DNA of 57,212 nt from Candidatus Bipolaricaulota bacterium (GTDB lineage Bacteria; Bipolaricaulota; Bipolaricaulia; Bipolaricaulales; Bipolaricaulaceae): the NCBI GenBank assembly GCA_014360995.1, contig JACIWL010000008.1, positions 1 to 57,212 on the forward strand, in the 5' to 3' direction. The position numbers and the translations under genes were made by a program. Under the pieces are notes generated by a model. It had not been told where the DNA came from. It made no database searches and saw only the letters and a program-made list of their open reading frames with translations. Below, in pieces: positions 2,703 through 24,825 of the stretch. Position 1 is the stretch's first letter. Every line of letters begins with the position of its first letter.

Positions 2703-3001
2703 TGGCCGAACATTTCCCGGGCCTCTTCGGACATGCGTTCCGGCGTCCACCGCGGCTCCCAAACCAGGTTCACTTCCACATCGTAGTCGGAAAACCTCTC
2801 CCGCAGAGCTTCCTCCACCTGAGCGGGAAGGAGGGCGGCCAGCGGGCAAGCAGGGGTGGTGAGGGTCATGTCCACGATGATCCGGTTCTCCTCCACCTGG
2901 ACATCGTAGATGAGCCCGAGGTCCACCACGTTGATCCCGAGCTCCGGATCCACCACCCTTTCCCGCAGGACCGCGCGAACCTCATCGGCGGAGGGCCGCA
3001 C
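2699..3001 (-). CDS. MIP18/DUF59 family metal-sulfur cluster assembly factor
   Basis: The 100-residue protein is a single DUF59 domain: DELGI-type stretch VVDPELGINVVDLGLIYDV (about 17-35), a beta strand IIVDMTLTTPACPL with the conserved Cys (about 52), then an amphipathic helix and a final strand ending in NLVWEPRW. The family (SufT, PaaD, MIP18) helps mature Fe-S proteins. It starts with GTG at 3001, overlapping the stop of the Rrf2 gene by one base (TAGTG), and its own stop overlaps the TTG start of the zinc protein. The link with an Rrf2 regulator supports a role in Fe-S cluster supply. Confidence 0.9.
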   Translation of the reverse strand: MRPSADEVRAVLRERVVDPELGINVVDLGLIYDVQVEENRIIVDMTLTTPACPLAALLPAQVEEALRERFSDYDVEVNLVWEPRWTPERMSEEAREMFGH

Positions 3002-3426
3002 TACTTCCCTCCTTTGCCCATGGCGAGCAAGTCCGCGAGCGTGGTGTTCTCCAATTCCTCAAGGAGGCGGGTTTCCAGGCGGTTCCAGAACGGCCAGGTG
3101 GGGCAGCTCTTTTCCACGGGATGGACGCCGGCTCCGCGGCCCCGCAGTTGACCGTAGGCCAATTCCAAAGCCTCGGGCTCCAGGGCCCGGATCACCGCGC
3201 CCACCTTGATCTCTGCGGGCTTACGGGCCAGTTTGTACCCCCCTACCCGGCCCTTTTGGGCCTCTACAAACCCCGACCGGCGCAGGTCCATGAGGAGCCG
3301 CCGGAGGAAGCTCTCCGGAACCCGGTACACCTCAGCCAAGGTGTGGGCCGACTGGAAGCCCTCGGCGTTGGTGGCCAAATCGCAAAGGATCCGCAGTCCG
3401 TAGCTTATCCTTCTGCTGGTAAGCAT
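3001..3426 (-). CDS. Rrf2 family transcriptional regulator
   Basis: The 141-residue product has the winged-helix start typical of Rrf2/IscR proteins (SRRISYGLRILCDLA, then VPESFLRRLLMDLRRSGFV and the wing KGRVGGYKLAR), and the C-terminal ending TLADLL. IscR-type members bind a [2Fe-2S] cluster through three cysteines around residue 92-104; here only one remains (SCPTWPFW, about residue 117), so cluster binding would need other ligands or a partner. ATG at 3426 follows dxr by 13 bases. A TAAAAT box (complement of 3437-3442) ten bases before the ATG may give an extra, nearly leaderless start inside the dxr end. Confidence 0.88.
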   Translation of the reverse strand: MLTSRRISYGLRILCDLATNAEGFQSAHTLAEVYRVPESFLRRLLMDLRRSGFVEAQKGRVGGYKLARKPAEIKVGAVIRALEPEALELAYGQLRGRGAGVHPVEKSCPTWPFWNRLETRLLEELENTTLADLLAMGKGGK

Positions 3427-3439
3427 AGCGGGCGTGATT

Positions 3440-4588
3440 TTATCCAAGTTGGGGGTAGCGCGCCACAAACCGCCAAGCCTCTTGGCGCGCCCAACTGTCC
3501 GCCCAGAGGATGGCCCCAAGGTTTTCTGCTGGTCGTTTTTCGTGCTGAGAAAGGACGTGGGCGATCCCCTCGGCGATGGCGGTGAATGGGATTTTTCTCT
3601 CCAAAAAGGCCTGGACAAGCACCTCGTCCGCGGCGTTGGCCACCGCCGGGGCCGTCCCCCCTTCCCTTCCCGCTTCCAAAACCGTCCAGAAGGCAGGATA
3701 GCGCTCTCGCGAAAGCTCGCGGAAATTGAGGGTGAGGGGAACAAGGCGCAGGGGAATTTTGGGAGGAAGGCGCTCGGGGTAAGTGAGAGCGGCGCGGATG
3801 GGAAGGCGCATATCCGCCGCGGCAAGCTGGGCCAAAATCGAGCCATCCCGCAGTTCCACCAGGGCATGGACCAAGGATTCCGGATGGAGTACCACACCGA
3901 TCTTCTCCCAGGCAATTTGAAAAAGGTGGTGGGCCTCGATGACCTCGAAGGCTTTGTTCACCAGAGTAGCGGAGTCCACGGTGATGCGCGGCCCCATTTT
4001 CCAGGTGGGATGGCGCAGGGCCTCCGCGGGGGTGACTTGGGAAAGCTCGGCTGGATCGCGCTCGCGAAAGGGGCCGCCGGAGGCGGTGATCCAAAGGCGC
4101 TCCACCTCCTCGCGCCTCACTCCGGAAAAAAGCTGCCAAAGGGCGGCGTGCTCGGAGTCCACAGGGATGATCTGGTCCGAAAAACGGCGGGCGGCCATCA
4201 CCAATTCCCCGCCCACCACCAGGGATTCTTTATTGGCCAAAGCCAGGCGTTTTCCCGCGTTAAGGGCACTTAAAGTGGGAAAAATTCCGACCGCCCCCAC
4301 CACCGCGTTTAAAACGAGCTCCACTTCCGGGAGGGCGGCGAGCTCCGCCAGGCCATCCGGCCCCCACCGCACACGGGCCTTGGGCAAAAGCTTTTGGAGT
4401 TTTTCCGCGTCCTCCTTCTCCGCCACACAAAGCTCGCGCACCCCGAATTCCTGGGCTTGTTGGGCCAAAGCCTCCACGTTCCGGCCGGCGGCCAGAGCCA
4501 CTACTTCAAATCGCTCCGGGAAGCGACGGATCTCTTCGAGGGCTTGAAGGCCGATGGAGCCGGTGGAGCCAAGGACGGCGAGCTTCAT
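3440..4588 (-). CDS. dxr: 1-deoxy-D-xylulose 5-phosphate reductoisomerase
   Basis: The 382-residue enzyme reduces and rearranges DXP to MEP, the committed step of the non-mevalonate isoprenoid pathway, using NADPH and a divalent metal. Visible are the NADPH-binding start GSTGSIGLQALEEI (residues 8-21), the phrases LANKESLVVGG and PVDSEHAALWQL (metal and substrate loop), TASGGPFRER, and the flexible-loop HPTWKMGPRITVDSATLVNK. Length is normal. The ATG overlaps the ftsH stop (ATGA). The product of the pathway needs the Fe-S enzymes IspG and IspH, which may be why an Rrf2 and a DUF59 gene follow, but this is inference. Confidence 0.97.
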   Translation of the reverse strand: MKLAVLGSTGSIGLQALEEIRRFPERFEVVALAAGRNVEALAQQAQEFGVRELCVAEKEDAEKLQKLLPKARVRWGPDGLAELAALPEVELVLNAVVGAVGIFPTLSALNAGKRLALANKESLVVGGELVMAARRFSDQIIPVDSEHAALWQLFSGVRREEVERLWITASGGPFRERDPAELSQVTPAEALRHPTWKMGPRITVDSATLVNKAFEVIEAHHLFQIAWEKIGVVLHPESLVHALVELRDGSILAQLAAADMRLPIRAALTYPERLPPKIPLRLVPLTLNFRELSRERYPAFWTVLEAGREGGTAPAVANAADEVLVQAFLERKIPFTAIAEGIAHVLSQHEKRPAENLGAILWADSWARQEAWRFVARYPQLG

Positions 4589-6423
4589 CCCACCGGCTGG
4601 GGGGCAAGATCCGAAAGGAGCCGGTCCACGTCCTCTTTGTCCAGGGTCTCCCGGCGCAAAAGCTCTTCGGCCACACGATCCAGGGCCCCGCGATACCGGC
4701 TCACTAAATCCTTGGCCCGGCTATAGGCCTCAAGGACGATGCGGCGGATCTCCCGGTCAATGGCGGCCGTGAGCTCCTCGGAGTGCTCGTCGCTTTTTAC
4801 GATTTCCTCCCCCAAAAACACGTTGGTGCGTTCCTTTCCCAGGCTCAACGGACCAAGCTCCTCGCTCATTCCGTATTCCACCACCATGCGCTTAGCTAGT
4901 TCTGTTGCGTGTTTGAGGTCCTCGGCGGCCCCGGTGGTCTGGTCCCCAAACACCACCTCTTCCGCGGCGCGGCCGCCCAAAAGGACGGCAAGGCGATCCA
5001 TGAGCTCGGACTTCGTGAGGAGATAGCGGTCCTCGGCGGGAAGTTGCAAGGCATAGCCGAGGGCGCCCATCCCTCGGGGGACGATGGTCACTTTGAGGAT
5101 CGGATCAGCATTGGGCACGAGTTTGCTCACCAGGGCGTGGCCAGCCTCGTGGTAGGCAATCCTCCGCCGCTCCTCCTCCTTTATGTACATGCCTTTCCGC
5201 GCTAGCCCCGTGATGACCCGCTCCAGGGCTTCTTCGAAATCGGCCATTTCAATGGCTGGCTTATTTTTGCGGGCGGCAAGAAGGGCGGCCTCGTTGCAGA
5301 GGTTTTCCAAATCTGCGCCCACAAACCCAGGAGTACGACGGGCAAGGAGGCTCAGGTCCACATCGGGAGCGAGCTTTTTGCCACGGGTGTGCACGCGGAG
5401 GATGGCCTCCCGGCCGTGGAGGTCGGGCGGGGGCACCACGATCTTCCGGTCGAACCGCCCCGGGCGAAGGAGGGCCGGGTCCAACACATCGGGCCTGTTC
5501 GTGGCGGCAAGGACGATCACCCCTGTGTCGCCCTCAAACCCGTCCATCTCCGCCAAAAGCTGGTTCAGGGTCTGCTCCCGCTCGTCATGGCCTCCGCCGA
5601 TCCCGGCGCCCCGCTTGCGTCCCACCGCGTCCAGCTCGTCGATGAACACGATGCAGGGAGCGTTGGCCTTAGCCTTTTGGAACATGTCCCGCACCCGCGC
5701 CGCACCCACGCCCACGAACATCTCCACGAAATCCGAGCCGGAGATGGAGAAGAACGGGACCCCCGCTTCCCCGGCGATGGCCCGCGCAAGAAGGGTTTTT
5801 CCCGTCCCCGGCGGGCCGACGAGGAGGATCCCTTTAGGGATCTTCGCCCCAAGGCGCGCAAACCGCCCCGGATCGCGGAGATAGTCCACGATCTCCCGCA
5901 CTTCCTCCAAAACCTCATCTATCCCAGCCACGTCCTTGAACGTGACCTTGGTGTACTCCTTGGTGACGAGCTTGGCCCGGGACTGGGTGAAAGAGAACGC
6001 GTTGGTTCCCTGCATCCGCCGCATCATCCAGCTCCAAAAGGCAATAACAAGGATCACCGGGAGGACGTAGCCGAGAAGGGTGAGGAACCAGCTTGCCCCC
6101 GAAGATGACTGGAACTGGATGGAAACTCCCTGAGCATCCAAAATGCCGATCAATTCGCTATAAGCCGGGGAGCTCTCCGGCGGCCCTTGGGTGGAGAAGC
6201 GTTCCCCGGTCTTTAGCACCCCCTCGATTTTGGCGCCCTGGATGACGACCTCTGCTACCTTCCCCGCCCGTACCTGCTCAAGGAAGTGGGAATAGCTGAA
6301 GGTATTAGTGCGGGGGGAGCTGGTCTGAAAGAGCTGCACCAACAAAAACACCACCAGGCCCAACACCAAAAGGAAGGTGATGAGCCGGAGGTTCCCAGGT
6401 GTTCCAATTGGCCTCTTCTCCAT
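4585..6423 (-). CDS. ftsH: ATP-dependent zinc metalloprotease FtsH
   Basis: The 612-residue inner-membrane AAA+ protease has two N-terminal transmembrane helices (about 15-35 and 115-135) flanking a small periplasmic domain, then the AAA module with Walker A GPPGTGKT, Walker [11 protein letters not shown], the second region of homology [18 protein letters not shown], and the zinc site HEAGH (about 423). It removes unassembled membrane proteins and unstable cytosolic factors. I prefer the ATG at 6423; a GTG three bases earlier is possible. No Shine-Dalgarno site is present, but a TTGAGC-17-TAAAAT promoter ends eight bases before the ATG, so the mRNA is probably leaderless. It heads the ftsH-dxr-rrf2-DUF59 chain. 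Confidence 0.97.
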
Positions 6424-6481: not shown

Positions 6482-7489
6482 CTAGCTCCAGACGCCAGGG
6501 ATAATGGCCCCACAGCGGGGGCAGTGCCCATCAAGGATGGCATTTTCTAAGACGTAAAAGCCGTAGCGACGTACAAGGATTCGGCTGCAAGAAGGACAAA
6601 GCGTGTCCTCTCCCTCACCCGGGACATTCCCCAGATACACGAAATGGAGCCCCGCCGAAAGCCCGATTTCCCGAGCCTTGCGGAGGGTTGAAAGGGGGGT
6701 TGGAGGAAGGTCCCAGACTTTATAGGCCGGGACAAATCGGGAAATGTGCCAAGGGATATCCGAGGAGATTCCAGCCAGAAACTCCGCGATCCAGCGCAGC
6801 TCCTCTTCCGAATCGTTTCTCCCTGGGATGAGGAGGGTGGTGACCTCCACCCAGATCCCGGCCTCCCACATCCGGGCGATGGTGTCCAAGACCGGCTGTA
6901 GCGAAGCTCCGCAGAATTTCCGATAGAACTCCTCGGAAAAGCTTTTCAGGTCGACGTTGGCGGCGTGGAGCCAGCCTTTGGCCGCAGCTAGGGCTTCCGC
7001 GGTCATGTAGCCATTAGTGACGAAAATGTTGCGCAAACCCTCTTCCACCGCGAGTTTTCCTGTCTCATGGCATAGCTCGAAGAACACGGTGGGTTCCGTG
7101 TAGGTGTAGGAGATGGAGCGGGCCTGGGTGGTTTTGGCCGCGGCCACAATTTCCGCGGGTGTAATCTCCTCGCCCACCACTCGTCCTTTCTCCCGGGGAA
7201 ACTGGGAGATCTCGTAGTTCTGGCAGAAATCGCAGCGGAAGTTGCAGCCCACCGTGGCGATGGAGAGGGTACCCGTTCCCGGCAGGAAGTGGAAAAGGGG
7301 CTTTTTCTCCACCGGGTCCAGGGCCTGGGAGACGATGCGGCCGTACACGAGGGAGTAGAGTTTTCCCCCGCGGTTTTCCCGCACCCCGCAGATCCCGCGG
7401 CGGCCCGGAGAAATCAGGCAACGATGGGCGCAGAGCTGACAGCGCACCCGGCCCTCGCCCGCGTCCTCCCAGAGCATCGCCTCCCGCAT
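6482..7489 (-). CDS. amrS: AmmeMemoRadiSam system radical SAM enzyme
   Basis: The protein (335 residues from the ATG at 7489) starts with a cysteine-rich segment (CQLCAHRC, then GICGVRENRGGKLYSL) and has the radical SAM motif in GCNFRCDFCQN, the SAM-site phrase SYTYTEPTVFFE, and a C-terminal Cys pair region (CPSC, CPRC) that looks zinc-binding. This fits AmrS of the AmmeMemoRadiSam family, whose substrate is not settled. No Memo (AmrB) or AMMECR1 (AmrA) gene is adjacent. A longer frame reaches 7567 and another ATG lies at 7498; I chose 7489 because TTGGCG-17-TAGGAT ends seven bases upstream and no ribosome site is seen. Next to ftsH but separated from it by 59 bases. Confidence 0.88.
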   Translation of the reverse strand: MREAMLWEDAGEGRVRCQLCAHRCLISPGRRGICGVRENRGGKLYSLVYGRIVSQALDPVEKKPLFHFLPGTGTLSIATVGCNFRCDFCQNYEISQFPREKGRVVGEEITPAEIVAAAKTTQARSISYTYTEPTVFFELCHETGKLAVEEGLRNIFVTNGYMTAEALAAAKGWLHAANVDLKSFSEEFYRKFCGASLQPVLDTIARMWEAGIWVEVTTLLIPGRNDSEEELRWIAEFLAGISSDIPWHISRFVPAYKVWDLPPTPLSTLRKAREIGLSAGLHFVYLGNVPGEGEDTLCPSCSRILVRRYGFYVLENAILDGHCPRCGAIIPGVWS

Positions 7490-7549
7490 CTTTCCCATCC
7501 TAGCCCCAAATTGCCGCCCCGCCAAATTCGGGACATTTGTCCAAAAGTG

Positions 7550-7579
7550 TAGACACCCTTGTCCCAAACACTATATAAT
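7550..7579 (+). promoter_or_regulatory. Promoter of the surface-protein operon
   Basis: TAGACA (7550-7555) and a perfect TATAAT (7574-7579) are separated by 18 bp. Transcription would start near 7586, giving a leader of about 100 bases before the ATG at 7689. This is the best sigma-70-type box pair ahead of the 7689-12528 operon. Confidence 0.6.
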
Positions 7580-7600
7580 GAGCCACCCCTTGGCCAAAGA

Positions 7601-7636
7601 AAGGAGGTGATGGGAGGAAGGGAGAGCTTGAGATAG
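7601..7636 (+). other. Perfect anti-SD complement and 8-codon open frame in the 5' leader
   Basis: The leader contains AAGGAGGTGAT (7601-7611), fully complementary to the standard 3' end of bacterial 16S rRNA. The only nearby start codon, ATG at 7610, lies inside that stretch and opens an eight-codon frame ending at TAG 7636, too close for normal initiation. It may be a ribosome standby or mRNA-stabilising site, a leader peptide, or chance in purine-rich DNA. The real gene has its own AAGGAGG site before 7689. Confidence 0.3.
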
Positions 7637-7688
7637 CGGTGGGTTCCCCGGCGAGGATTAGTTGGGCCTAAAAGGGGAAGGAGGTCGA

Positions 7689-8861
7689 ATGGCAAAGCGT
7701 TTATTAGTTGCGCTCATTTGCTTTGGTGCAGTGGTTTTTGGGCAAAGTCTCAGTGGCAGCTGGTCCACGCGGATCTCCCTCCTTCCACCGCCGGCGGCTC
7801 TCGACTACACCAGGTTTGACCTGCAAGGAAAGCTTTTCGACTGGACGGTGGAAGGGACGGCGGAGTTCTTCGGGACCGATGGTTGGGTTTGGCAGACCAT
7901 ATATGCCAAAGGAGTCCTTGGACCGATCTCCTCGGAGTGGATGCTGCTTTTCGGTCCCTTGGCCCCGGCTTTCCTCTACGCTTACGGAAAGTACACAGTG
8001 CCCATCGGTGGCATTGACGTGGTGCTGCACACGGCCATGGTTGGGCCCAATGGGCCCTACGTGTTCACCGGTGGCCCCTCGGGTGGAGCCGTGCTCGAGC
8101 TCGAACAGAGCCTAAACGGTTTCCCCCTCTCTCTTGAGATAGGCCTCGGTGCCCGCAAACAGGATTTCACCATCCAGTACACGGGCGTTGGGACATATAC
8201 CAAGGTTTTTCCCATTGATCCTTTTCCAGGCGGGCTGGAATTCACCTATCTGAAGCTGGGTTTGAGGTCCCTGCCCCTCTGCTGCGGCATTAGCCTCGAT
8301 TTAGACTTCTCTTTCACCAAAGAGGCTGGGTTTGACACGCTTGTGGTCACGCTGAAAGAAATGCCTCTTTGCTGTGGCATCTCCCTTGACACCGAGGTGG
8401 AGTTCACCACCACGGCCAAAACTGTAAATCTCCGGCCCAAGTGGGCGGGCATCACCGGTTGTTTCACTGTGTACGGGAACGCCCGCCTCTCGAACAACAC
8501 CTGGCAGGGGATCGAACTCTACGGGGTCAAACTCCGCTGCGATCTTGGTGACTGCGCTTATGCGGAATTTCTCACGGCTTTGGACCCGGCCAAAGTGGAG
8601 GAGATCCTCGGGGAGGACATCTTCGCGGGCGCGGAGTTCGAGTACCTGAAGCTCAAGTTCTGTGGCGCCGGCTGCTGCGGGGGAACTTGGACGTTCGAGG
8701 CGGGCCTGTTCTTCCAGCCCTCGGGGAGTCTCTTTGGGCTGAGCCGGGTACTGATGGACTTGGTGATCCCGGTGATGGCCAACCTGGAGGTGAACGCTGG
8801 CCTTGTGGCGCCGGTGGGCGGGCCGGCCGGCCTCAGCGTGGGCTGGACTTTCACCTTCTGA
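7689..8861 (+). CDS. Secreted beta-rich surface protein with CCG motifs (possible outer-membrane protein)
   Basis: The 390-residue product has a clear signal peptide (residues 1-19, ending VVFGQ) and a body of alternating beta-strand-like stretches. Two tandem segments share the phrase LCCGISLD (about residues 196-203 and 227-234), and a Cys motif FCGAGCCGG lies near residue 322. It ends in WTFTF with a terminal Phe, as many outer-membrane barrels do. I do not recognise a named family. The C-terminal 140 residues are clearly related to the protein at 24403, and more loosely to that at 37802. ATG 7689 follows AAGGAGG at 7679. It is the first gene of the operon with the 8873 lipoprotein and the subtilase. 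Role unknown. Confidence 0.72.
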   Translation: MAKRLLVALICFGAVVFGQSLSGSWSTRISLLPPPAALDYTRFDLQGKLFDWTVEGTAEFFGTDGWVWQTIYAKGVLGPISSEWMLLFGPLAPAFLYAYGKYTVPIGGIDVVLHTAMVGPNGPYVFTGGPSGGAVLELEQSLNGFPLSLEIGLGARKQDFTIQYTGVGTYTKVFPIDPFPGGLEFTYLKLGLRSLPLCCGISLDLDFSFTKEAGFDTLVVTLKEMPLCCGISLDTEVEFTTTAKTVNLRPKWAGITGCFTVYGNARLSNNTWQGIELYGVKLRCDLGDCAYAEFLTALDPAKVEEILGEDIFAGAEFEYLKLKFCGAGCCGGTWTFEAGLFFQPSGSLFGLSRVLMDLVIPVMANLEVNAGLVAPVGGPAGLSVGWTFTF

Positions 8862-8872
8862 GGGGGTGACCC

Positions 8873-10363
8873 ATGCCCAAGCGGCTCCTTTTTGTGGGTT
8901 TGATCCTCAGTGCTTTGGCCCTCTCGGGGTGTCTGTTCATCCGCGCCCCCTCCACAGGTGTCATCGAGGGATACGTGACGAACCACCTTTCCGGCGAGCC
9001 GGTGGTGGGAGCAGTGGTGAGGGCTTGGCCCATGGATGGTGAGGCTCCACGGTACACGGTGAGCTCTGACTACTACGGGGCCACGGCGGTGACGAACTCC
9101 GAGGGGTATTACCGGCTGGTGGTGCCGGAGGGTATGTACGTGATGGAGGCGCGCAAGGAGGGCCACGCCACCTCCCGGATCGAAGGGGTGAAGGTGGGAA
9201 GCACCGCGCGCGTGGACATCGTGCAGAAACCCGTATTCAACCCGAACTGGTCCGTGGAACCTCCACGGGTCAGTGTGGAAGGGGTGGAGGAGGGCATGAC
9301 CATTTCTGGCCCCATCACCCTGAAGATTGAGGCTAGGGGCGGTAACGACATTCAGCTCATCTACGCCGCATTTGGGAAGATGCCGGGAGCTTCTTGGCTC
9401 ACCGCTCCGCGTGAGGTCTTCTCTGGCACTTACACCACCGGCACATTCACCCTTGATCCCGCGAAATACGGGGTATCCGGCGCGACTACGGTGGAGGTGG
9501 TGGTGTACGACCAAAACGACAACCGGACCCACCTCATCTTCCGGGTGTTTGTGGAGCCAGCGGCGAACCCGCCCTCCGTGGCATCACCCGGGCTGGTTTC
9601 TGGCGTCCCGTTGGCGCGAGCGGTCACCCTCTCCAAGCAGGTAGCCTTCATGGGGCTTGATCCCCAGGCTGCTCCGCCAGGAGCCAATATCTACGTGGAA
9701 CTGACCTGGAGCCGATCCAATGATGATAATCCTCCGACTTCGGTTATAACTGGCTACCGCATCTATCGCCGGCTTGCTGGCGAAGCGGATTTCAAGCTCA
9801 TCGGCACGGTGGGCGCCACTGGTGCCTCTAGCTATACCTATCGCGACCCCAGCCCTGACCTCAAGGTGGGCGTAGAGGCCACCTACCGCGTCACGGCATA
9901 CAAGGGCGAGGTGGAGTCAGCACCAATCGAAGCTTCCACCACTCCCCTTCCTCCGTGGGATGTGCGGCTTTTGGAGCCCGCGGACGAAGCCATCGGTGTT
10001 TCCCTGACACCCACTTTCCGCTGGCAACCCATTCAGGTGGTGGGAAACGTCCAGCACTATCGGCTGTGGTTGTGGGATGCTAACCACGGTTGGGGTTGGG
10101 CCTTGATTAGTCCTGTACTCCAGAACCAGACTCAGTGCACTTGGGCAGAGCTCCGCGTCTATCCGGGATATCCCACGGCAGGTACACCTTGGGAACGCCT
10201 CCAGCCCAACCGCACCTACGAGTGGTACCTGGACTACGCGGTGGCTTTCGACAGTTATCCGACTTGGACAGCAGCTTCCGTGGCGATAAACGATGGCGCG
10301 ACCGATGCGTTCCCCACCGTGCTCCCCGCGGATATGTTCCAGTTCACCACCGGTGAGCAGTGA
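8873..10363 (+). CDS. Lipoprotein with CarboxypepD_reg-like and fibronectin type III-like domains
   Basis: The 496-residue protein has a lipoprotein signal (lipobox LSGC, Cys at about residue 20). Residues about 30-110 look like a carboxypeptidase regulatory-like Ig fold (GVIEGYVTNHLSGEPVVGA, then NSEGYYRLVVPEGMYVMEA). Residues about 275-360 look like a fibronectin type III domain (VELTWSRSNDD, TGYRIYRRLAGEADF, YRVTAYKGEVESAP). The last 130 residues (PADEAIGVSLTPTFRWQP, RTYEWYLDYAVAF) resemble another surface Ig-like domain. No catalytic motif is seen, so a structural or substrate-binding role is likely. The ATG at 8873 lies 12 bases after the preceding stop, with GGGGTG before it. The next gene encodes a lipoprotein protease. 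Confidence 0.75.
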   Translation: MPKRLLFVGLILSALALSGCLFIRAPSTGVIEGYVTNHLSGEPVVGAVVRAWPMDGEAPRYTVSSDYYGATAVTNSEGYYRLVVPEGMYVMEARKEGHATSRIEGVKVGSTARVDIVQKPVFNPNWSVEPPRVSVEGVEEGMTISGPITLKIEARGGNDIQLIYAAFGKMPGASWLTAPREVFSGTYTTGTFTLDPAKYGVSGATTVEVVVYDQNDNRTHLIFRVFVEPAANPPSVASPGLVSGVPLARAVTLSKQVAFMGLDPQAAPPGANIYVELTWSRSNDDNPPTSVITGYRIYRRLAGEADFKLIGTVGATGASSYTYRDPSPDLKVGVEATYRVTAYKGEVESAPIEASTTPLPPWDVRLLEPADEAIGVSLTPTFRWQPIQVVGNVQHYRLWLWDANHGWGWALISPVLQNQTQCTWAELRVYPGYPTAGTPWERLQPNRTYEWYLDYAVAFDSYPTWTAASVAINDGATDAFPTVLPADMFQFTTGEQ

Positions 10364-10377
10364 GGGAGGTGAAGACC

Positions 10378-12528
10378 ATGACCAAGAAGATCTGGGTGTT
10401 TTTCGCATTCGGAGCTTTGGCCTTGATCCTTGCGGGCTGTGGTACCCTCTTCGGCCCGAAGACGGAAACCCCCCTCGTGCAGCCCATTACCCTCACCCCG
10501 GTGGATCCCCAGACCGCAATCCCGCCGGAGATATTCCCGGCGAGAATCGAGGGTGAGTACGTTGAGGGCCAGATCATCGTGGGCTACCGGGATGAGTCCA
10601 GCCTCTCCCGGGTTTTGACTCTGGTGAACGGCACGATCCGCCACAAGACCTCCTCCATCAACGCTGCCCTGGTGGAGCTTTCGGGGATGAGCGTCCCTGA
10701 GGCGCTGGGTAGGATTGCCTGGGCCGTCCGCCGGGGCGAGCTCCCCGGCCTTCGCTACGCTGAGCCCAACTACTTGCGCGAGCTCATCGAGCCCTTGCCC
10801 TCGACGAACTTGCAGACCCTGGATGTTCTCCCCAAGGTCTACGATCCCTCGGCGGACCTCCGGCCGTATCAGTGGGGATTGGATGTGGTGCGGGCAGAGG
10901 AGGCCTGGCCCTACGCCACCGGTAAAGATGTCATCGTCGCCGTGGTGGATACTGGCGTAGATGGAACCCATCCCGATCTCCAAGGACAAGTTGAGCCCGT
11001 ATGGTACGACGCCTGGAACCTCACATGGGTTAGCGGGGATGACTCCAGCTGGGGGCCGGTTTATAGCACTCGTTACCGGCGCTGGTTTGAAGGATCGCAT
11101 GGCACCCATGTGGCGGGGATCATCGCGGCCAAAAACGATGGAGTGGGCATCACAGGACTGGCACCCGGGGTGAGAATTCTCTCCATCCGGATTTTCTCGC
11201 CCGACGCTGTTCTTGCCACCGGGCACTATTTCGTGGGCGACTATAGAGCTGCCTTAGGGATCATCGAAGCTGTAGACTATGGGGCGCGGGTCCTTAATAA
11301 CTCCTGGGGTGGAAAAGGCTATTCCCAGACGATAAAGGCTGCCATCGACTACGCTCTGGCAAATGGTGCGGTGTTTGTTGCTGCCATGGGCAACTCCTAC
11401 CTCGACGAGGTCAGTTACCCTGCGGGCTATCCCGGTGTGATGGCCGTGGGCGCCACCAATCCGCAGGATAAGAAGGTGGACTTCTCCACTTCCGGCGGGC
11501 ACATCTCCGTGGGCGCTCCTGGCGACCGGGTTCTTTCCTGCGTGCCCCGATGGATGGAGCAGGCGGGCATGGGGACACCGCTTTTGTACGACTACTGGAG
11601 CGGGACGTCCATGGCGACCCCCTTCGTTTCAGCATTGGCAGCTATGGTCCTGGAGCAGCATCCTGATGCCAGCCCGTACCAGGTGCGCCGGCTTATCGAG
11701 CAGAGCGCCGCTGACATAGAGGTGCCCGGATTCGATCGCCGCACTGGCTACGGCCGCATCGACGCCCTGCGGGCTGTGCAGACGAGCACCCTGCCCGAAG
11801 ACGGCGCCAGCCTCACAGTCTACGTGTACACTGCAAGCTCTGGCTTCCCTGTCCCCTACGTGGACATCACCCTGCGCAAGAACGGGATCGACCGGTACTT
11901 CGGTCAGACCGACCACGAGGGCTGGAATAGATTCGGCTTCCCTTATAACCCCGCTACTTATCGCTGGGGTGTAGGCGCCTTTTACGGGATCGAGCCGGGG
12001 ATTTACGAGGTCATCGTGGGCGGCGAGGACATGACCCTCTATTGGGCCCGGGTGGCCAACCGCGTCACCGCCAGAGGCACAGTCACCCTGAGCCCCGGCG
12101 ACAGCAGAACGGTCGAGCTCGAGGTCAACACCACCCTGAAGGTCACCCTGACCTGGACGGAGGCCGTGGATTTGGACCTCGCGGTCTTGGAATACGACCC
12201 AGAGCTTGACGACTATGTTTGGCGCACACCCAAAACCGGGGCAATTTGGGGCGCTTTCTCCGGGGATGCTCAGTTTGGTGGCTCGGAGACTTATACGCTC
12301 AATCCCACGCACTGGGACTACGACATTTACTATCTCGGCATCGTGGCTTACGGTGACTCCACTACCGCCACGGTCAGGGTGGTGCAAAACGGGGTGACCG
12401 AGGACTACGGCCCGTACTCCGTGGTCTCAGGGTACCTCTACCCCTCGTGGACTTGGCCGGACTGGTGGGAGAACGCTACGCATCCGTACTTTGGGGTGAA
12501 TGGGCCGGGCGGGCCGATAGTGTACTGA
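10378..12528 (+). CDS. Subtilisin-like (S8) serine protease lipoprotein
   Basis: The 716-residue protein has a lipobox (LAGC, Cys about 21), a prodomain (about 55-140, EGQIIVGYRDES through YAEPNYL), and an S8 catalytic domain with the triad D191 (AVVDTGVDGTHPD), H241 (SHGTHVAGI) and S411 (GTSMATPF), plus the oxyanion Asn in AAMGNS. The remaining 240 residues form beta-rich domains, including a stretch like a pre-peptidase C-terminal domain (VTLTWTEAVDLDLAVLEYD). It should sit on the cell surface or periplasmic face and cut proteins or peptides for nutrition or maturation. ATG 10378 has GGGAGGTGAAG upstream; an in-frame upstream extension is ignored. A strong terminator follows. Confidence 0.93.
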   Translation: MTKKIWVFFAFGALALILAGCGTLFGPKTETPLVQPITLTPVDPQTAIPPEIFPARIEGEYVEGQIIVGYRDESSLSRVLTLVNGTIRHKTSSINAALVELSGMSVPEALGRIAWAVRRGELPGLRYAEPNYLRELIEPLPSTNLQTLDVLPKVYDPSADLRPYQWGLDVVRAEEAWPYATGKDVIVAVVDTGVDGTHPDLQGQVEPVWYDAWNLTWVSGDDSSWGPVYSTRYRRWFEGSHGTHVAGIIAAKNDGVGITGLAPGVRILSIRIFSPDAVLATGHYFVGDYRAALGIIEAVDYGARVLNNSWGGKGYSQTIKAAIDYALANGAVFVAAMGNSYLDEVSYPAGYPGVMAVGATNPQDKKVDFSTSGGHISVGAPGDRVLSCVPRWMEQAGMGTPLLYDYWSGTSMATPFVSALAAMVLEQHPDASPYQVRRLIEQSAADIEVPGFDRRTGYGRIDALRAVQTSTLPEDGASLTVYVYTASSGFPVPYVDITLRKNGIDRYFGQTDHEGWNRFGFPYNPATYRWGVGAFYGIEPGIYEVIVGGEDMTLYWARVANRVTARGTVTLSPGDSRTVELEVNTTLKVTLTWTEAVDLDLAVLEYDPELDDYVWRTPKTGAIWGAFSGDAQFGGSETYTLNPTHWDYDIYYLGIVAYGDSTTATVRVVQNGVTEDYGPYSVVSGYLYPSWTWPDWWENATHPYFGVNGPGGPIVY

Positions 12529-12550
12529 GCTTTGGCCGTTTCTCAGTTCA

Positions 12551-12581
12551 GGGCCGGGTAAAACCCGGCCCTTTTCTTTTT
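12551..12581 (+). terminator. Rho-independent terminator of the surface protease operon
   Basis: A perfect 8-bp GC stem (GGGCCGGG 12551-12558, CCCGGCCC 12564-12571) with a five-base loop is followed by the T-rich run 12572-12581. It lies 22 bases past the subtilase stop and separates this operon from the gene at 12633. Confidence 0.9.
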
Positions 12582-12632
12582 AAACCCAGGCCAACCGGGC
12601 GGTGTAGACTTTCTTTGAAAGGGGGTGGCGTT

Positions 12633-13586
12633 ATGCGGGTAATTCTGGTCCTCTTGGCTTTGTTCTTTGGCTTTCTGGGCCTGGCGACCCCGTACTCTTG
12701 GCATACCCTGTACCCCGAGCCCAATACCTACGGCTGGAACAACACCCCGGTGACCGTGACCCTCGAGGCCTCGGGAGGCGCGGGTCTTCAGGTGTGCTAT
12801 ATATTGGACAACGCTGGCCAGGTATGCCAAACCCCACCAGTAACCATCACCATCTCTTCGGAGGGAGTCCACACCCTCGAGTACTGGGCCAAAGATGCAA
12901 CTGGTGAAGAGTCGCACCATTTTCTCACGATAAAAATTGATTTTACGCCGCCAAAGATCTCCGTGCGTGTTCCTGAAGAAGACCATAAATATTTTCTGCA
13001 CGAAAAGGTCCAGGTGGATTGGGTCGCATACGATCGCCTTTCCGGTTTGGAGTTCGTGGACGCGGCCGCCCGGCCCGGGGAGAGCTTAAATACGGATTCT
13101 CCCGGCCACCAGACCTTCTGGGTCTTGGCCAGGGATCGGGCGGGGAATACGGCGCGCACAGAAGTCGATTACCGGGTGATCTGCTACATCGAGACGGTTT
13201 TGGAAAGCGGTTTTTATCTGGATCGTCTGCTTCCCAAGGAAGAACAGGTCCTGATGTGGAAATTCCCTCTGAGAGCTAGATACAGCCGCGGGGAGCCCAT
13301 CTTGATCGCCTTCAGGCTCCTTGACTTTTACCGCCAGCCAGGGCCCTGGACGCGGCCCAACCTCCTTCTCACCCAGGTCCGGCCGGATCCTGAGTTCGGG
13401 GAGAGGCACACGATCTGGGATTGGGTGTTCATCCCCTACGATGCCGAGGCTGGGTTCTACCGGCTCTCCTACGACACGACGGGGCGCGAACCCGGGGTGT
13501 ACGAACTTTGGCTGGACTTCGGCGACAGTCAAAGCCAGCGCATCCGCGTGGAAATTCTACCGGAAAGTAAGGAAGAGGGATCCTGA
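12633..13586 (+). CDS. Secreted protein with OmpL47-type Ig-like domains
   Basis: The 317-residue product has a signal peptide (residues 1-18, ending FLGLATP). Residues about 25-105 (NTPVTVTLEASGG, HTLEYWAKDATGEESHH) and 110-190 (PPKISVRVPEEDHKYF, QTFWVLARDRAGNTARTEV) look like two copies of the OmpL47/bacterial Ig-like fold often found in surface proteins. The C-terminal 130 residues are beta-rich with no motif I know. No lipobox and no catalytic site are seen. ATG 12633 follows GGGGGTGG. It sits past the subtilase terminator, so it is transcribed separately or by read-through; shared location suggests a role at the cell surface. Confidence 0.7.
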   Translation: MRVILVLLALFFGFLGLATPYSWHTLYPEPNTYGWNNTPVTVTLEASGGAGLQVCYILDNAGQVCQTPPVTITISSEGVHTLEYWAKDATGEESHHFLTIKIDFTPPKISVRVPEEDHKYFLHEKVQVDWVAYDRLSGLEFVDAAARPGESLNTDSPGHQTFWVLARDRAGNTARTEVDYRVICYIETVLESGFYLDRLLPKEEQVLMWKFPLRARYSRGEPILIAFRLLDFYRQPGPWTRPNLLLTQVRPDPEFGERHTIWDWVFIPYDAEAGFYRLSYDTTGREPGVYELWLDFGDSQSQRIRVEILPESKEEGS

Positions 13587-19467: not shown

Positions 19468-21510
19468 ATGGAGGTCACACTTCACGGGGATGGCCATGTG
19501 GAGCTTATCCTGGCTGGAAAAACTATCCTGCGCGGCTTTGATTTCCTTCTTAGACTCCAAGGCGCCACGCTTTCCTCAAAGGATTTCCTGGCTAGCCCAT
19601 GGGAGGAAAGCTTGGGAAGCGACAAATTTGGCGCATTTCGGTGCCTCAAAAGGCGACTTTCTCACGAAGGTACAGAGCTTTTAGAGGAGCGGCTCTTTTT
19701 ATATGACGGGGCTCTGCGCCACGAGATCCGGTTCCTTACAGAGGTTTCCGGGCTTTTGGGCTCCCGGGATTTTCTAGATCCAGCTGTGTGGTGTCCCCTC
19801 TTTTTCCCTGCTCCGGAGGCCTCGTACTTTTTGTGCACATTTGGGCTCGATGGGGAAGGCGGGGATTATCCTGGGGGCTACTGGCCGGAGGCCAGGTGGG
19901 GAAAAGTGGGCCAGGGCTTTCCTCCTAAGCCCTTTGCTCCTTTGGTCATCTACCGAGAAGACAACGCGATGGCGGTGGCTCCAGGAGAGCTTTTCCTCTT
20001 GAGCCCCCTTGGAGCCTTTTCCCAGGGTGTGGGCCGGGCTTTAGCTGGGGATTTTCCGAAAATTCCGGCCGGGACCGTACTTTCCACCTGGTTTGTGGCC
20101 GGAAAGGACCCCGGGGAAGCCCTACGGGGGCTGGGCGAGATTTTCCTTATCCCTAAAGGCACGTGGAGGCAGCATCCGCTTCTTTCCCGCCTTGGTTATT
20201 GGAACGCCTACGGGTCCTATTACACCGAGCTCATCCACCCCATGGAGGAAAAGATCCTGCGGAGTTTGGCCGCGGAGTTCCGGGCTAAAGGCATCCCGGT
20301 GGGCTATTTTGGGCTTGACCTTTGGTACCCTTACGAGCGGATCGGCCAAGCCCTGGAATTTCGTCCAGATAAGAGAAAATATCCGCGCGGCCTCCAAGCT
20401 CTTTTAGAGGAAACGGAAATTCCCTTTGTCCTCCATCTTTCCGCCCTAAGCCCGCGCAATTCTTACGGCACGGATGGCGTAGATCCCCAAATCTACGGGG
20501 GAATCGGAAAAGAGCTCCGGCGGCAAGGGGGTATCGGCGTTTGGCACGATTGGCTTAGGACTTGGCAGTTCCTAACCAGAGAGCTCCTTTCCGATCCCTG
20601 GGCGGCGGAGCGCTGGTTCTCCGGGATGTGTCAGGAATTTCGAGAAGTTGGGCTTCCCGTGCTTCTCTGCATGCAAACAATGGGGATGGTTTTGGCCTCC
20701 ACAAAGGAACCCAACGTCATTTCCGCTCGAAGCTACACGGATCATCTTTTTTCCTTGAAGCTAGCTTTGCGCCGCGCGGCCAAAACCGATCCCCACCTCG
20801 TCCACGCGTGGCAAAATATTTTGCACATTTGGCTTCAAAACCTCCTTGTGGGCTACGTTCAGTGGGCGTTAGGTCTCGCCCCTTTCCATGACCTTTTCCT
20901 TTCCCGCAAGCACCCGGGTTTTGGCGGCGAGCGGGCCTGGGAGGAGGCTGTGCTGCGCGCCCTTTCCTGCGGACCGGTGGGCTTTGGCGACGCCTGTGGC
21001 ATGGCCGATCCCGCTCTCCTCTTGCGGCTTGTCCTTCCCGACGGGAGGCTAGCCCAGCCGGCGCGGCCACCAGAGCCCGTCTGGTCCACCTTGGGAAGCT
21101 CCACCCCGGTTTTTTGGACGGAAACCAGGGCGGGCGAGCTAACCTGGGTCTACGTTCTTATTCTGAACCTCACCGAGGAGGAAAAGGAAGTACGGGTAGA
21201 TCCTCCTCTGGAAGGGGATTTCCTTTCCTGGGATCTGCGGGCCGAGGGCCCCGGCTCACTAACTTTGCGGGTTTTACCTTCGACCCTCGCTTATCGCGTC
21301 CTTTTACCCAAGGTACACGGGGTTGGTCTTTTGGGCTTTCCCGAACTTCTCGTGCCCATGCCGGCCGAAGCGCAAGTGGAAATCTTGCGGAACCGAGGAA
21401 ACTGGTGCATTTCCCTGCCAAAAGGCATGGACCTCTCTGCAGTTTTTGATCATGGTAAAATGGTGCCGGCGAAAGATCTGGTGGGAGTGGAGGTGCAAAG
21501 GAGGGGATGA
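19468..21510 (+). CDS. Putative clan GH-D-like glycoside hydrolase, cytoplasmic
   Basis: The 680-residue protein has no signal peptide. The N-terminal 230 residues are beta-rich, the middle looks like a TIM barrel (LGYWNAYGSYYTELIHP, then GIPVGYFGLDLWYPYERIG and GIGVWHDWLRTW), and the last 150 residues are again beta-rich. This layout and the strand carrying Asp in GYFGLDLWY recall GH36/GH31-type and raffinose-synthase-like proteins, but the match is loose and the family could be new. ATG 19468 has AAAAGGAGGGG upstream. Its stop overlaps the start of the secreted GH57 gene by one base, so the two are coupled; a role in alpha-glucan or galactoside breakdown is inferred from that context. Confidence 0.5.
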   Translation: MEVTLHGDGHVELILAGKTILRGFDFLLRLQGATLSSKDFLASPWEESLGSDKFGAFRCLKRRLSHEGTELLEERLFLYDGALRHEIRFLTEVSGLLGSRDFLDPAVWCPLFFPAPEASYFLCTFGLDGEGGDYPGGYWPEARWGKVGQGFPPKPFAPLVIYREDNAMAVAPGELFLLSPLGAFSQGVGRALAGDFPKIPAGTVLSTWFVAGKDPGEALRGLGEIFLIPKGTWRQHPLLSRLGYWNAYGSYYTELIHPMEEKILRSLAAEFRAKGIPVGYFGLDLWYPYERIGQALEFRPDKRKYPRGLQALLEETEIPFVLHLSALSPRNSYGTDGVDPQIYGGIGKELRRQGGIGVWHDWLRTWQFLTRELLSDPWAAERWFSGMCQEFREVGLPVLLCMQTMGMVLASTKEPNVISARSYTDHLFSLKLALRRAAKTDPHLVHAWQNILHIWLQNLLVGYVQWALGLAPFHDLFLSRKHPGFGGERAWEEAVLRALSCGPVGFGDACGMADPALLLRLVLPDGRLAQPARPPEPVWSTLGSSTPVFWTETRAGELTWVYVLILNLTEEEKEVRVDPPLEGDFLSWDLRAEGPGSLTLRVLPSTLAYRVLLPKVHGVGLLGFPELLVPMPAEAQVEILRNRGNWCISLPKGMDLSAVFDHGKMVPAKDLVGVEVQRRG

Positions 21511-24386
21511 TGAAGAAGGCGGTGCTTTTGGGGTTGGCGGTCTTTTCAAGCCTCGCTTTGGCCAAAGGTCCCATCAACGTGGCCATCATCTGGCACATGC
21601 ATCAGCCCCTTTACTGGAATCGTCTTACTGGCGAGTACGAGCTACCTTGGGTACGGGTCCATGGGGTCCAGGAATACCTGGACTCCCCGCGGATCCAGCT
21701 GGAATTCCCCGGGGTCAAAGTCACTTATAACCTCCAGCCAAGCCTTCTTTGGCAGCTTCTGGACTACGCGGAGATCACGGAGGAAGAGAGAGCAAAAGGT
21801 GGCTTGTACGAGTTCATCGGTGCCGTGGATAACCATTTGAAGTGGATTTGGACCCTTCTCCATGAGCCGGAAGAGCTTTCTCCTGCGACGCGGGCGGCCA
21901 TGCAAGAGCAGTTTTTCTGGATCAACCCCTACATGCTCCGTCCCGGCGGGAAGTACTATGATCCCTACTACGCTGAGCTGAATGTTCTCAAGGGCCAACG
22001 CCAGCTCACAGACCAAGAGCTCCTCGACGCGGGCGGCCTCTTTCTCCTCTGGCAGATTTCGCCCGAACTCCATGCCGAATTGGGGCTTTTGGAGCTGCGG
22101 GGGAAAAGGGGATGGACGGAAGGCGACATCGTGAGGGTGATCCGGGCTCAGCACGAGCTGATAAGCCGTGTTGTGGAGTACTACCGCCGGGCTCAGGAGG
22201 CCGGGGCTGAGCTTATCACTAGCCCCTTCTTCCACCCCATTCTGCCCATTTTGGCCGAGCGCGGCTGGGATGAGGACGTGTTGGCCCAGCTTCAGCTCGG
22301 GCAAGAGCAACATGCCCAGCTTTTCGGAAGACCCGCGGTGGGAGTTTGGCCTCCAGAGCAGGCCGTTTCCGAGCGGGCCGTGGGCCTCCTTTCCCAGGCC
22401 GGCTTCGTCTGGACCGTGGCCGACGAGTGGAGCCTGGCCGCGGCGTTGGGCCGTAGCCCAAGCCCTGAGGATCTCACCCGGCCCTGGAAACTCGGGGAAA
22501 TGGCCATCTTCTTCCGCGACCACAACATTTCCGACAAAATTGCCTTCTCCTACGGGAATAAGCCCACGAGCGAGGCCGTGGCTGACTTCATGAACGAGAT
22601 TCGCCGCTACTGGAGCGTCCTTCCCAACCCTGCGGAACACGTAGTGGTCGTGGCCCTGGACGGCGAGAACTGGATGTTCATGGCCGGTTATCCCGACAAT
22701 GGCCGGGAATTCCTGCGCGCCATCTACCGTTCCCTCGTCCAGGCCGACTGGGTGCGGATGGTCACTCCCGCGGAGTTCCTGAGGGAGCACGGGGTCCAGG
22801 CGGTTCTCCCGCGGCTTCCCACTGGGTCCTGGGCCGGCGATCTCTCCACCTGGCAGGGAGAGCCCGAGGAGGACGAGGCTTGGGCCGTCCTGGCGCAGGC
22901 CAGGGAGGCCGTGTTTTCCCGCGCTCCCGATACCAGAGCTCTGAATGCCCTGTACGCCGCGGAGGGTTCCGACTGGTTCTGGTGGTACGGCGATGACCAG
23001 GATTCCGGGACCGACGACCTCTTCGACTGGCTATTCAAAGCCCATCTGGTTGGGGCTTATCGTGCCGCTGGTTATAGCGACGCGGAAATCCCCTCCACAC
23101 TTTTCTTGCGCCTTGTGATCCCCGTGCGGGCCAATCTGGGTGAGGTGAAACCCACTCTGGACGGACTGATCACCAGCCCTGCAGAATGGGCTGAGGCCGT
23201 GGTCTTTCCCGGTACCGGGGATATCCGCACCTTTGCCCTGGCGTACGGCGAGAGCTACCTCTACGTGCGGGTTGATCTGGTCAAAGCGGCGCGGGAACTT
23301 GTCGGCTCGGACACGCGTTTGGTGCTCTACGCCAGCGGTAAACCTGGAGAAAAAGCCAATATCCTCACCCGGCACAGTGGGGAGCAGCTGGGCTTTGCCT
23401 TTTCTTCCGCAGTGGAGTTGGAGTTCGCTAAAGTTAAGGCCGACGGTACAGGCTACGTTTTCCGCTACGGTGCTGATGGAAAAGGCGGTTGGCGCCTGAC
23501 CTCGCCCGTGCGCACCCTCCTTTTCCGCAAAGCGGCGGTGAACGAGATCGTGGAGTTCATGGTCCCGTTCGAGGAGCTTGGGGTGGAGCCGGGGCAAAGC
23601 CTCACTGTGGCGGTGGTCCTGGAGCGGCCAGGCGAGATACGGGGGCGTGCGCCCGAGAGGCCTCTCTTTGCCCGCATCCCCACCCTCATCCGGGGGCGGG
23701 AGATCTGGGCCATGGAGGATCCCCGGGGCGACGACTTTGGGCCGGGAACCTACGTTTACCCTCTGAACAAGGTGTTCGCCGAGGCACCGGGGCTTTTCGA
23801 CCTTATCCGCTACGCTGTGTACGATGCTGATAATGCTTGGCAGTTGAGCTTTGATTTCCCCGCTCTGCCTAACCCCTGGAACGGACCACACGGTTTCTCC
23901 CATCCCATCATCTTCGTGTATTTGGATGTGGCTCCCGGTGGTCGTACTGATGTCCACGAGGAGGGCAAAGCGGCCCAGGTTGCCTTCGATCCCGCTCATC
24001 CCTGGGATTACGTGCTGAAGATCGCGGGCTGGCCCGGTTACGGCCGGCACCTCTGGACGGCGGCCGGCGAGGGGCCGTTCCTGGTGGATGTGGCGTCCGA
24101 TCCCAAGCGGGGCCGGGTCATCGTCACCGTCTCCAAGGAACTTATTCCGGAGATCCGTGGCTGGCACTACGTTCTTGTGGGATCCCAGGACGGCTATGGT
24201 CCCAACCACATCCGGCCGGTGGGCAAGAACCCCGGCGAGTGGACAGGCGGAGGTTGTCCTGATCCCATGTGGGCTCCCCAGCTCTACGATATCCTTGCCC
24301 CCACAGTAGACGAACAAATTGCCGGGCTGAGTAGCTACATCCCTGGTCAGCACTACGCCGTTGTGCGCCCGCAAGAAGTGCGCTGA
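21510..24386 (+). CDS. Secreted GH57 family alpha-glucan hydrolase
   Basis: The 958-residue protein has a signal peptide (residues 1-18, ending LALA) followed directly by GH57 motif 1 HMHQP (29-33). The predicted nucleophile is E283 in GVWPPEQA and the acid is D384 in VALDGEN. Residues about 480-560 look like a helical GH57 tail. The last 390 residues are beta-rich: one stretch resembles a sugar-binding domain (LDGLITSPAEWAEAV), and another fits the C-terminal domain of glucodextranase-like proteins (HPIIFVYLDVAPGGRTDVHEEG). It should act outside the inner membrane on starch, pullulan or glycogen. I start at ATG 21510 (five-base spacing from AAGGAGG) rather than at 21507. It probably feeds MalEFG. 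Confidence 0.9.
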   Translation: MKKAVLLGLAVFSSLALAKGPINVAIIWHMHQPLYWNRLTGEYELPWVRVHGVQEYLDSPRIQLEFPGVKVTYNLQPSLLWQLLDYAEITEEERAKGGLYEFIGAVDNHLKWIWTLLHEPEELSPATRAAMQEQFFWINPYMLRPGGKYYDPYYAELNVLKGQRQLTDQELLDAGGLFLLWQISPELHAELGLLELRGKRGWTEGDIVRVIRAQHELISRVVEYYRRAQEAGAELITSPFFHPILPILAERGWDEDVLAQLQLGQEQHAQLFGRPAVGVWPPEQAVSERAVGLLSQAGFVWTVADEWSLAAALGRSPSPEDLTRPWKLGEMAIFFRDHNISDKIAFSYGNKPTSEAVADFMNEIRRYWSVLPNPAEHVVVVALDGENWMFMAGYPDNGREFLRAIYRSLVQADWVRMVTPAEFLREHGVQAVLPRLPTGSWAGDLSTWQGEPEEDEAWAVLAQAREAVFSRAPDTRALNALYAAEGSDWFWWYGDDQDSGTDDLFDWLFKAHLVGAYRAAGYSDAEIPSTLFLRLVIPVRANLGEVKPTLDGLITSPAEWAEAVVFPGTGDIRTFALAYGESYLYVRVDLVKAARELVGSDTRLVLYASGKPGEKANILTRHSGEQLGFAFSSAVELEFAKVKADGTGYVFRYGADGKGGWRLTSPVRTLLFRKAAVNEIVEFMVPFEELGVEPGQSLTVAVVLERPGEIRGRAPERPLFARIPTLIRGREIWAMEDPRGDDFGPGTYVYPLNKVFAEAPGLFDLIRYAVYDADNAWQLSFDFPALPNPWNGPHGFSHPIIFVYLDVAPGGRTDVHEEGKAAQVAFDPAHPWDYVLKIAGWPGYGRHLWTAAGEGPFLVDVASDPKRGRVIVTVSKELIPEIRGWHYVLVGSQDGYGPNHIRPVGKNPGEWTGGGCPDPMWAPQLYDILAPTVDEQIAGLSSYIPGQHYAVVRPQEVR

Positions 24387-24402: not shown

Positions 24403-24825
24403 ATGAATGGGTTTTTGTTACAAGAAAGACAGGGTTGTTTTGTCATCCACAGAGATGTGCGCACGTCTGGCGCCTCCCTCCAAGGCGTCGAGATCTACGG
24501 TTGGAAGATTCGCTGTGACCTTACCCCTTGCGGTTATCTTGAGGTCCTCACGGCCCTGAACGTGGCCAAGATCGAGGAGATTTTCCAGGCCGATATCTTC
24601 TTTGGCGACGAGTACGAGATGGTGAAGATCGGATTCTGTGGCCAGGGCTGTTGCGGCAATTGGAATCTCGCGGTTACCACGTTCTTCAGCCCAACCGGCG
24701 GTCTTTGTGGCATCAAACGGATGTGGATCGACGCGGACTTCCCGCTGAGCAAGGACCTAAAGGTCGTCTTGAACGTCTCGCCGACTTTGGGTGAGCTCTA
24801 CGCTGGGTTCACTTTGGGGTTCTAG
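24403..24825 (+). CDS. N-terminally truncated paralogue of the CCG surface protein; probable gene remnant
   Basis: The 140-residue frame matches the C-terminal third of the 7689 protein: QGVEIYGWKIRCDL against QGIELYGVKLRCDL, and FCGQGCCGN against FCGAGCCGG, both ending in a beta strand with terminal Phe. The first 25 residues (MNGFLLQERQGCFV...) are not a signal peptide, so the product would stay in the cytosol, unlike its relative. An AAGGAG lies nine bases before the ATG. I read it as a truncated copy between the GH57 gene and malE that may still be translated, not as an intact gene. Confidence 0.6.
   Translation: MNGFLLQERQGCFVIHRDVRTSGASLQGVEIYGWKIRCDLTPCGYLEVLTALNVAKIEEIFQADIFFGDEYEMVKIGFCGQGCCGNWNLAVTTFFSPTGGLCGIKRMWIDADFPLSKDLKVVLNVSPTLGELYAGFTLGF

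Follow-up and report, generated by a model that had tools for sequence, protein, structure and literature searches.

What do three tightly spaced genes, framed by a single promoter and a terminator, encode in a bacterium of the phylum Bipolaricaulota? The genes, here named P1, P2 and P3, lie on the forward strand of contig JACIWL010000008.1 of Candidatus Bipolaricaulota (assembly GCA_014360995.1). The window, i.e. the whole stretch of DNA analysed, comprises 57,212 nucleotides and represents contig C42 of a metagenome-assembled genome (MAG) of 1.29 Mb, referred to as G000. The original prediction, made from the letters alone, proposed that the genes form one surface machine and knew of no system described so far that is composed in this way. 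The latter did not hold, as P2-P3 resembles PrcA-PrtP of Treponema and DR_A0282-DR_A0283 of Deinococcus, known relatives that had been missed, and the barrel encoded by P1 is a clade-specific add-on. Judged by sequence comparison, the locus appears to be an operon for a dentilisin-like surface protease into which a barrel gene has been built, and its products would probably form a protease complex of PrcA-PrtP type that is held at the surface by lipid anchors.

The operon structure was recovered as originally described. The gaps between the genes are 11 bp (P1-P2) and 14 bp (P2-P3). Upstream lies a sigma-70-type promoter, TAGACA-18-TATAAT (7550-7579, plus strand), which agrees with the consensus at 11 of 12 positions and is the best of four matches in the window, where 2.2 are expected by chance. 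The position of the promoter is kept in the close relatives L125, L127 and L128, each again with 11/12, and it has decayed in G002, a genome in which P2 and P3 are themselves broken or missing. Downstream, an intrinsic terminator (12550-12572, plus strand) consists of a 10-bp stem AGGGCCGGGT/ACCCGGCCCT and a T-run TTTCTTTTT; a stem with the same GGCCGG core was found 3′ of P3 in 11 of 12 family loci. P1-P2-P3 is thus confirmed as a one-promoter operon bounded by a conserved promoter and terminator.

P3 (10378-12528, plus strand) starts with ATG, a GTG at 10360 being an in-frame extension, and encodes a protein of 716 amino acids with a lipobox (LAGC), a prodomain, an S8 domain and C-terminal beta domains. 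The Pfam search returned Fervidolysin_NPro, Peptidase_S8 and the DR_A0283 immunoglobulin (Ig) domain. The scores for PF00082 (188.9 bits) and PF22148 (54 bits) are both above cut-off and identify P3 as an S8 subtilase with a fervidolysin prodomain, and the DR_A0283-like Ig domain (PF24025, residues 481-559 of the GTG-started protein) reaches 28.1 bits against a gathering threshold of 27.1. The lipobox Cys21 and the triad D191/H241/S411 are invariant in an alignment of 25 rows. The best PDB match is fervidolysin of Fervidobacterium (1r6v, E 1.2e-162). The prodomain, the S8 domain and the first beta-sandwich of this enzyme align with P3 (profile 46-564), whereas its second beta-sandwich (PF22349) has no match in the window P3. 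The NCBIfam PrtP model (NF033595) matches P3 with 4.4e-53 and 180.8 bits, which is below the cut-off of 300 bits for membership; P3 proteins score 115-181 bits with this model (115-175 for those other than the window P3) and unrelated S8 proteases of the same phylum at most 104. The tail of P3, PDWWEN..GPGGPxVY (12440-12528), is conserved in many Bipolaricaulota P3 proteins. An aromatic last residue is found also in Thermaceae and Thermotogae; as Deinococcus P3 proteins lack it, we dropped the idea that it is a universal sorting signal.

P2 (8873-10363, plus strand) is a lipoprotein of 496 amino acids (lipobox LSGC) with CarboxypepD_reg and fn3 domains in Pfam. It comprises four Ig/FN3-like beta-sandwich domains and resembles a scaffold of the DRA0282/PrcA kind. 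Its structure model has a predicted local distance difference test score (pLDDT) of 88.4 and a predicted TM-score (pTM) of 0.82, with a loop of low confidence near residues 258-270, and Cys20 is invariant in alignment A1 and nearly invariant in alignment A3. The NCBIfam DRA0282 family (NF052428) matches residues 192-383 of the window P2 (4.6e-10, 38.7 bits), which falls below its cut-off of 800 bits over the whole protein and leaves P2 outside the family as curated; the same model matches 26 of 30 P2 family members, at best with 1.8e-17. The comparison with Treponema PrcA is likewise based on an NCBIfam model (NF033597), which matches 13 of the 30 P2 relatives (best 1.1e-16; best individually listed score 50.5 bits, the membership cut-off being 200 bits). 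These matches are collinear and cover PrcA 8-133 and 320-412. CarboxypepD_reg, a common domain, accounts for much of the PrcA signal, and it is therefore the second stretch that matters. Across 80 relatives, the PrcA model gave a single match, and this was to a P2.

The closest described systems, as far as sequence likeness can tell, are Treponema dentilisin (PrcB-PrcA-PrtP) and DR_A0282/DR_A0283 of Deinococcus. Dentilisin is encoded by prcB-prcA-prtP in Treponema denticola and forms a surface complex of lipoproteins, in which PrcA cleavage requires PrtP and PrtP needs its partners; according to the same source, PrcA and PrcB occur only in oral spirochetes (PMC8167434). In both dentilisin and the window operon, a lipoprotein gene directly precedes the gene of a lipoprotein subtilase. 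PrtP and P3 are alike as subtilisin-family lipoproteins with a prodomain and a long C-terminal domain, and in sequence P3 is remotely similar to PrtP, as relatives of P2 are to PrcA. Moreover, dentilisin is linked to Msp, the major outer-membrane protein of Treponema, and the window operon holds the barrel gene P1. The first genes differ, however: the dentilisin operon starts with the PrcB lipoprotein gene and the window operon with P1. No PrcB equivalent was found in the operon, and a PrcB_C domain occurs in this genome only on contig C34. Because the family cut-offs are not reached and PrcB is missing, we describe the operon as dentilisin-like in its probable working and do not claim membership.

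The second system comprises DR_A0282/DR_A0283 and the MP1 pair DR_RS15800/DR_RS15805 of D. radiodurans. In the MP1 pair, a DRA0282-family lipoprotein gene comes first, and 17 bp further on lies the gene of an S8 lipoprotein of fervidolysin type that carries the DR_A0283 Ig domain. The similarity of P2 to DRA0282 and of P3 to DR_A0283 is remote. The Deinococcus P2 is longer (886 amino acids), has an extra Ig domain and aligns with only part of the window P2 at about 26 % identity; no P1-type barrel gene is present in its operon. Both DR_A0282 and DR_A0283 have been reported in the SlpA deinoxanthin-binding complex (PMC8779699). Looking in the literature for PrcA or dentilisin in combination with Thermotoga yielded no more than a Kosmotoga paper in which a PrcB domain is mentioned, and nothing was found under the locus names DRB0068-0070. 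Since the trio is conserved, P1 is predicted to be a barrel and relatives of P2 and P3 are known parts of surface complexes, the originally proposed surface machine is reasonable, but we only infer a physical complex, above all one that includes P1.

How far does the trio stay together? P2 was found in 27 of the 80 relatives. In the window's own family (f1), upstream sequence could be read in 19 genomes; in each of them P1 precedes P2 or what remains of it, and these loci sit in several different genomic neighbourhoods. The trio is kept together across many genera. Seven genomes of families f3, f6 and f9 have the P2-P3 pair without P1. With the P2 alignment as query, we retrieved 29 loci in named genomes of Bipolaricaulota, Fraserbacteria, Thermaceae and Thermotogae MAGs; apart from one locus truncated by a contig end, P3 follows P2 in every case (28 of 28). 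Run phylum-wide, the P2 profile matched 53 of the 103 genomes grouped around the Thermotogae record and 35 of the 111 grouped around the Thermaceae record, sets taken as Thermotogota and Deinococcota, respectively. All 60 loci fetched from them have an S8 protease of P3 type beside P2 on the same strand, downstream in 59; in L184 the best S8 match is upstream, and in L213 P2 is interrupted. The same pair is carried by Deinococcus megaplasmids. As the pair spans at least three phyla and P1 stands beside it, among the loci compared, only in the window's own Bipolaricaulota family, P2-P3 is the core, a two-gene module of near-obligate pairing, and P1 is an addition to it.

Several loci depart from the common layout. 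Locus L106 (G001:C22:1-20000) has tandem copies at 2938-5705 and 7015-11944, one of them complete (P1-P2-P3), the other a diverged P1-P2 couple that lacks the protease. In L107 (G002), P1 is intact, P2 is broken and P3 is gone, and L112 (G012) is a deletion relic with P2 residues 7-49 lying directly against P3 residues 668-722, in which P1 largely persists. In the Thermotogaceae MAG locus L153, P2-P3 is followed by two small secreted proteins ending in NPTVTF (11843-12968), which are possible outer-membrane partners there.

The operon itself turned out to be a mosaic. In the window, P1 and P2 up to residue ~335 are 59-83 % identical to those of the genus members G001, G003 and G004, but identity to the same genomes drops to 42-46 % in the P2 C-terminus and to about 48 % in P3, while P3 is 57-59 % identical to that of the distant genera G025 and G018. 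A clade of G000 and G005 with G025 and G018 is rejected by the trees of P1 and the N-terminal part of P2 (p-AU 1e-93 and 1e-63) and recovered in those of the C-terminal part of P2 and P3 (support 85/93 and 100/99), which reject the genus as a clade (p 3.7e-4 and 6.6e-8); all these p-values are lenient, because the groups were chosen after the identities had been seen. The breakpoint falls inside P2 at residues ~335-365, near the domain boundary after FN3. The pattern indicates that the C-terminal domain of P2 and P3 were exchanged together from another lineage, with P1 and the P2 N-terminus following the genus. Such a joint exchange would agree with the C-terminal domain being the protease-facing part and with P2 bridging anchor and protease. 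It bears also on another explanation, that P3 is an ordinary secreted scavenging subtilase and P2 a generic Ig/FN3 surface protein placed beside it by an accident of operon history. S8 and FN3/CarboxypepD_reg domains are indeed common and P3 resembles the keratinase fervidolysin, but the near-obligate neighbourhood of P2 with S8 proteases of this type over at least three phyla, and the single history that the P2 C-terminus and P3 share in the window lineage, make this explanation very improbable.

P1 (7689-8861, plus strand) encodes a secreted protein of 390 amino acids with a signal peptide; we took the ATG at 7689 as its start and the TTG at 7662, used by the open reading frame (ORF) tool, as an extension. 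The protein has conserved Cys-Cys motifs and a C-terminal LxxGWxFxF signal with the C-terminal Phe present, and all its orthologues end in GWxFxF-like strands. The AlphaFold2 model (pLDDT 81.9, pTM 0.65) shows ~24 strands, and the Foldseek matches with E <= 0.001 are outer-membrane barrels, besides designed metalloproteins of unchecked scaffold, with modest TM-scores (best 0.56). P1 has no match in Pfam and no sequence relative in the PDB; its likeness to TonB receptors and porins is one of fold only, the predicted outer-membrane beta-barrel. Both the strands and the leading matches agree with the original suggestion of a barrel, and P1 is predicted to be an outer-membrane beta-barrel. That suggestion of one machine was to fall if the three genes were not conserved together or if P1 was not predicted as a barrel; the trio is conserved together and the barrel is predicted. 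The P1 profile gave no match in 10 genomes of other families and phyla, a set that had no positive control. Within Bipolaricaulota, P1 belongs to a phylum-wide paralogue family with several copies per genome. The window also contains a 140-amino acid ORF (24403-24825) whose match to the P1 barrel is restricted to the C-terminal part of the latter. Its neighbours are a GH57/Glucodextran_C protein (21507-24386) on one side and a binding-protein-dependent ATP-binding cassette transporter (from 24854) on the other. As G004 and G006 have ORFs of comparable length and coverage, it may be a conserved short protein and not debris.

What P1 does beside the pair can be read in more than one way. It could be a general porin that is merely co-transcribed, the functional unit being P2-P3 alone. 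This would explain why P1 has stayed intact in G002, with its broken or deleted P2 and P3, and largely persists in G012, and why no P1 stands beside the pair in f3, f6, f9 and the other phyla tested. However, P1 of the operon type always occurs next to P2 or its remains (19/19), in varied neighbourhoods and with short gaps, and G001 has a second P1-P2 couple that lacks P3; we regard the porin explanation as possible but doubtful. Alternatively, the pair could be a machine for the maturation or quality control of envelope proteins; its clients would be the P1 barrel and the paralogues of P1, much as Msp depends on dentilisin. In Treponema, nearly all dentilisin mutants have lost their Msp oligomers, and PrcA2 binds and co-precipitates with Msp (PMC8167434); in the window P1 is the first gene of the operon, and its paralogues are many in each genome. 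On the other hand, many genomes of the family have P1-family barrels without P2 and P3, which suggests that the barrels are generally independent of the pair, and other families and phyla have the pair but no P1 beside it. We therefore consider the client role of P1 rather unlikely.

We favour the surface protease complex, which could work as follows. Subtilases in general fold with the assistance of a prodomain and activate themselves. P3 would be exported as a lipoprotein zymogen, fold on its N-terminal prodomain and self-activate, and P2, with a lipid anchor of its own, would hold and stabilise the protease via its C-terminal domain. The cell is taken as diderm, since the genome encodes an Omp85 assembly protein. 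Displayed on the outer membrane, the pair would cut external proteins for nutrition, and the co-transcribed P1 would be its outer-membrane partner in Bipolaricaulota, most likely a channel or docking site, a client having been considered as well. This role of P1 is suggested by analogy with the link of Msp to PrcA in Treponema and of SlpA to DR_A0282/0283 in Deinococcus. The related Acetothermia strain Ran1 is reported to live by fermenting peptides (PMC6092417), which by analogy fits the nutritional reading.

Several observations weigh against this proposal. The window P2 has no match to the PrcA model, all matches to the PrcA, PrtP and DRA0282 models stay below the curated cut-offs, and DRA0282 has been described as a DNA-binding protein (PMC7314050). 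The mosaic could be explained by one crossover of neighbouring DNA, carrying no physical meaning. P1 outlives the loss of P2 and P3 (G002, G012) and, given also its several copies per genome, it can have a separate role.

Upstream of the promoter, a palindrome GGACATTTGTCC (7531-7542, plus strand), exact in the window, is a candidate operator. It alone is not rarer than chance within the window, and the evidence for it is conservation: its core (GACA..TGTC or close) is aligned, exactly or nearly so, in 6 of 6 genus members compared. A second, imperfect palindrome GACACCCTTGTC (plus strand) overlaps the -35 element, so that two GACA..TGTC palindromes stand at 7531-7565 around the -35; a divergent radical S-adenosylmethionine gene is also close by. 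As the first palindrome is kept in the genus members, the operon may be regulated, the palindromes serving as candidate operator of some regulator. An Ig-like secreted protein, P4 (12633-13586), follows the operon as the original prediction had stated. We rejected it as a member, because it lies past the terminator and in G005 another gene stands between P3 and P4. Among the loci searched, P4 orthologues are near the operon only in G001, G004 (two copies) and G005.

The PrcA-PrtP-like pair recurs in at least three phyla, although earlier work regarded dentilisin as confined to oral spirochetes, and the finding ties a virulence-associated protease complex of these bacteria to a widespread environmental gene pair. 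It also gives a Deinococcus protein now annotated as DNA-binding a likely surface role. Homologues from thermophile-rich lineages become available for structural work, including a scaffold subunit for which we found no close solved structure, and the barrel linked in the operon makes the mutual dependence of surface proteases and outer-membrane barrels directly testable. More tentatively, the PrcA-PrtP pair may be a single offshoot of an ancient surface-protease module that is distributed over diderm phyla whose envelopes are unusual (Thermotogota, Deinococcota, Bipolaricaulota); the dedicated barrel of Bipolaricaulota may make of it a protease-coupled channel for external protein, similar to what Sus is for glycans.

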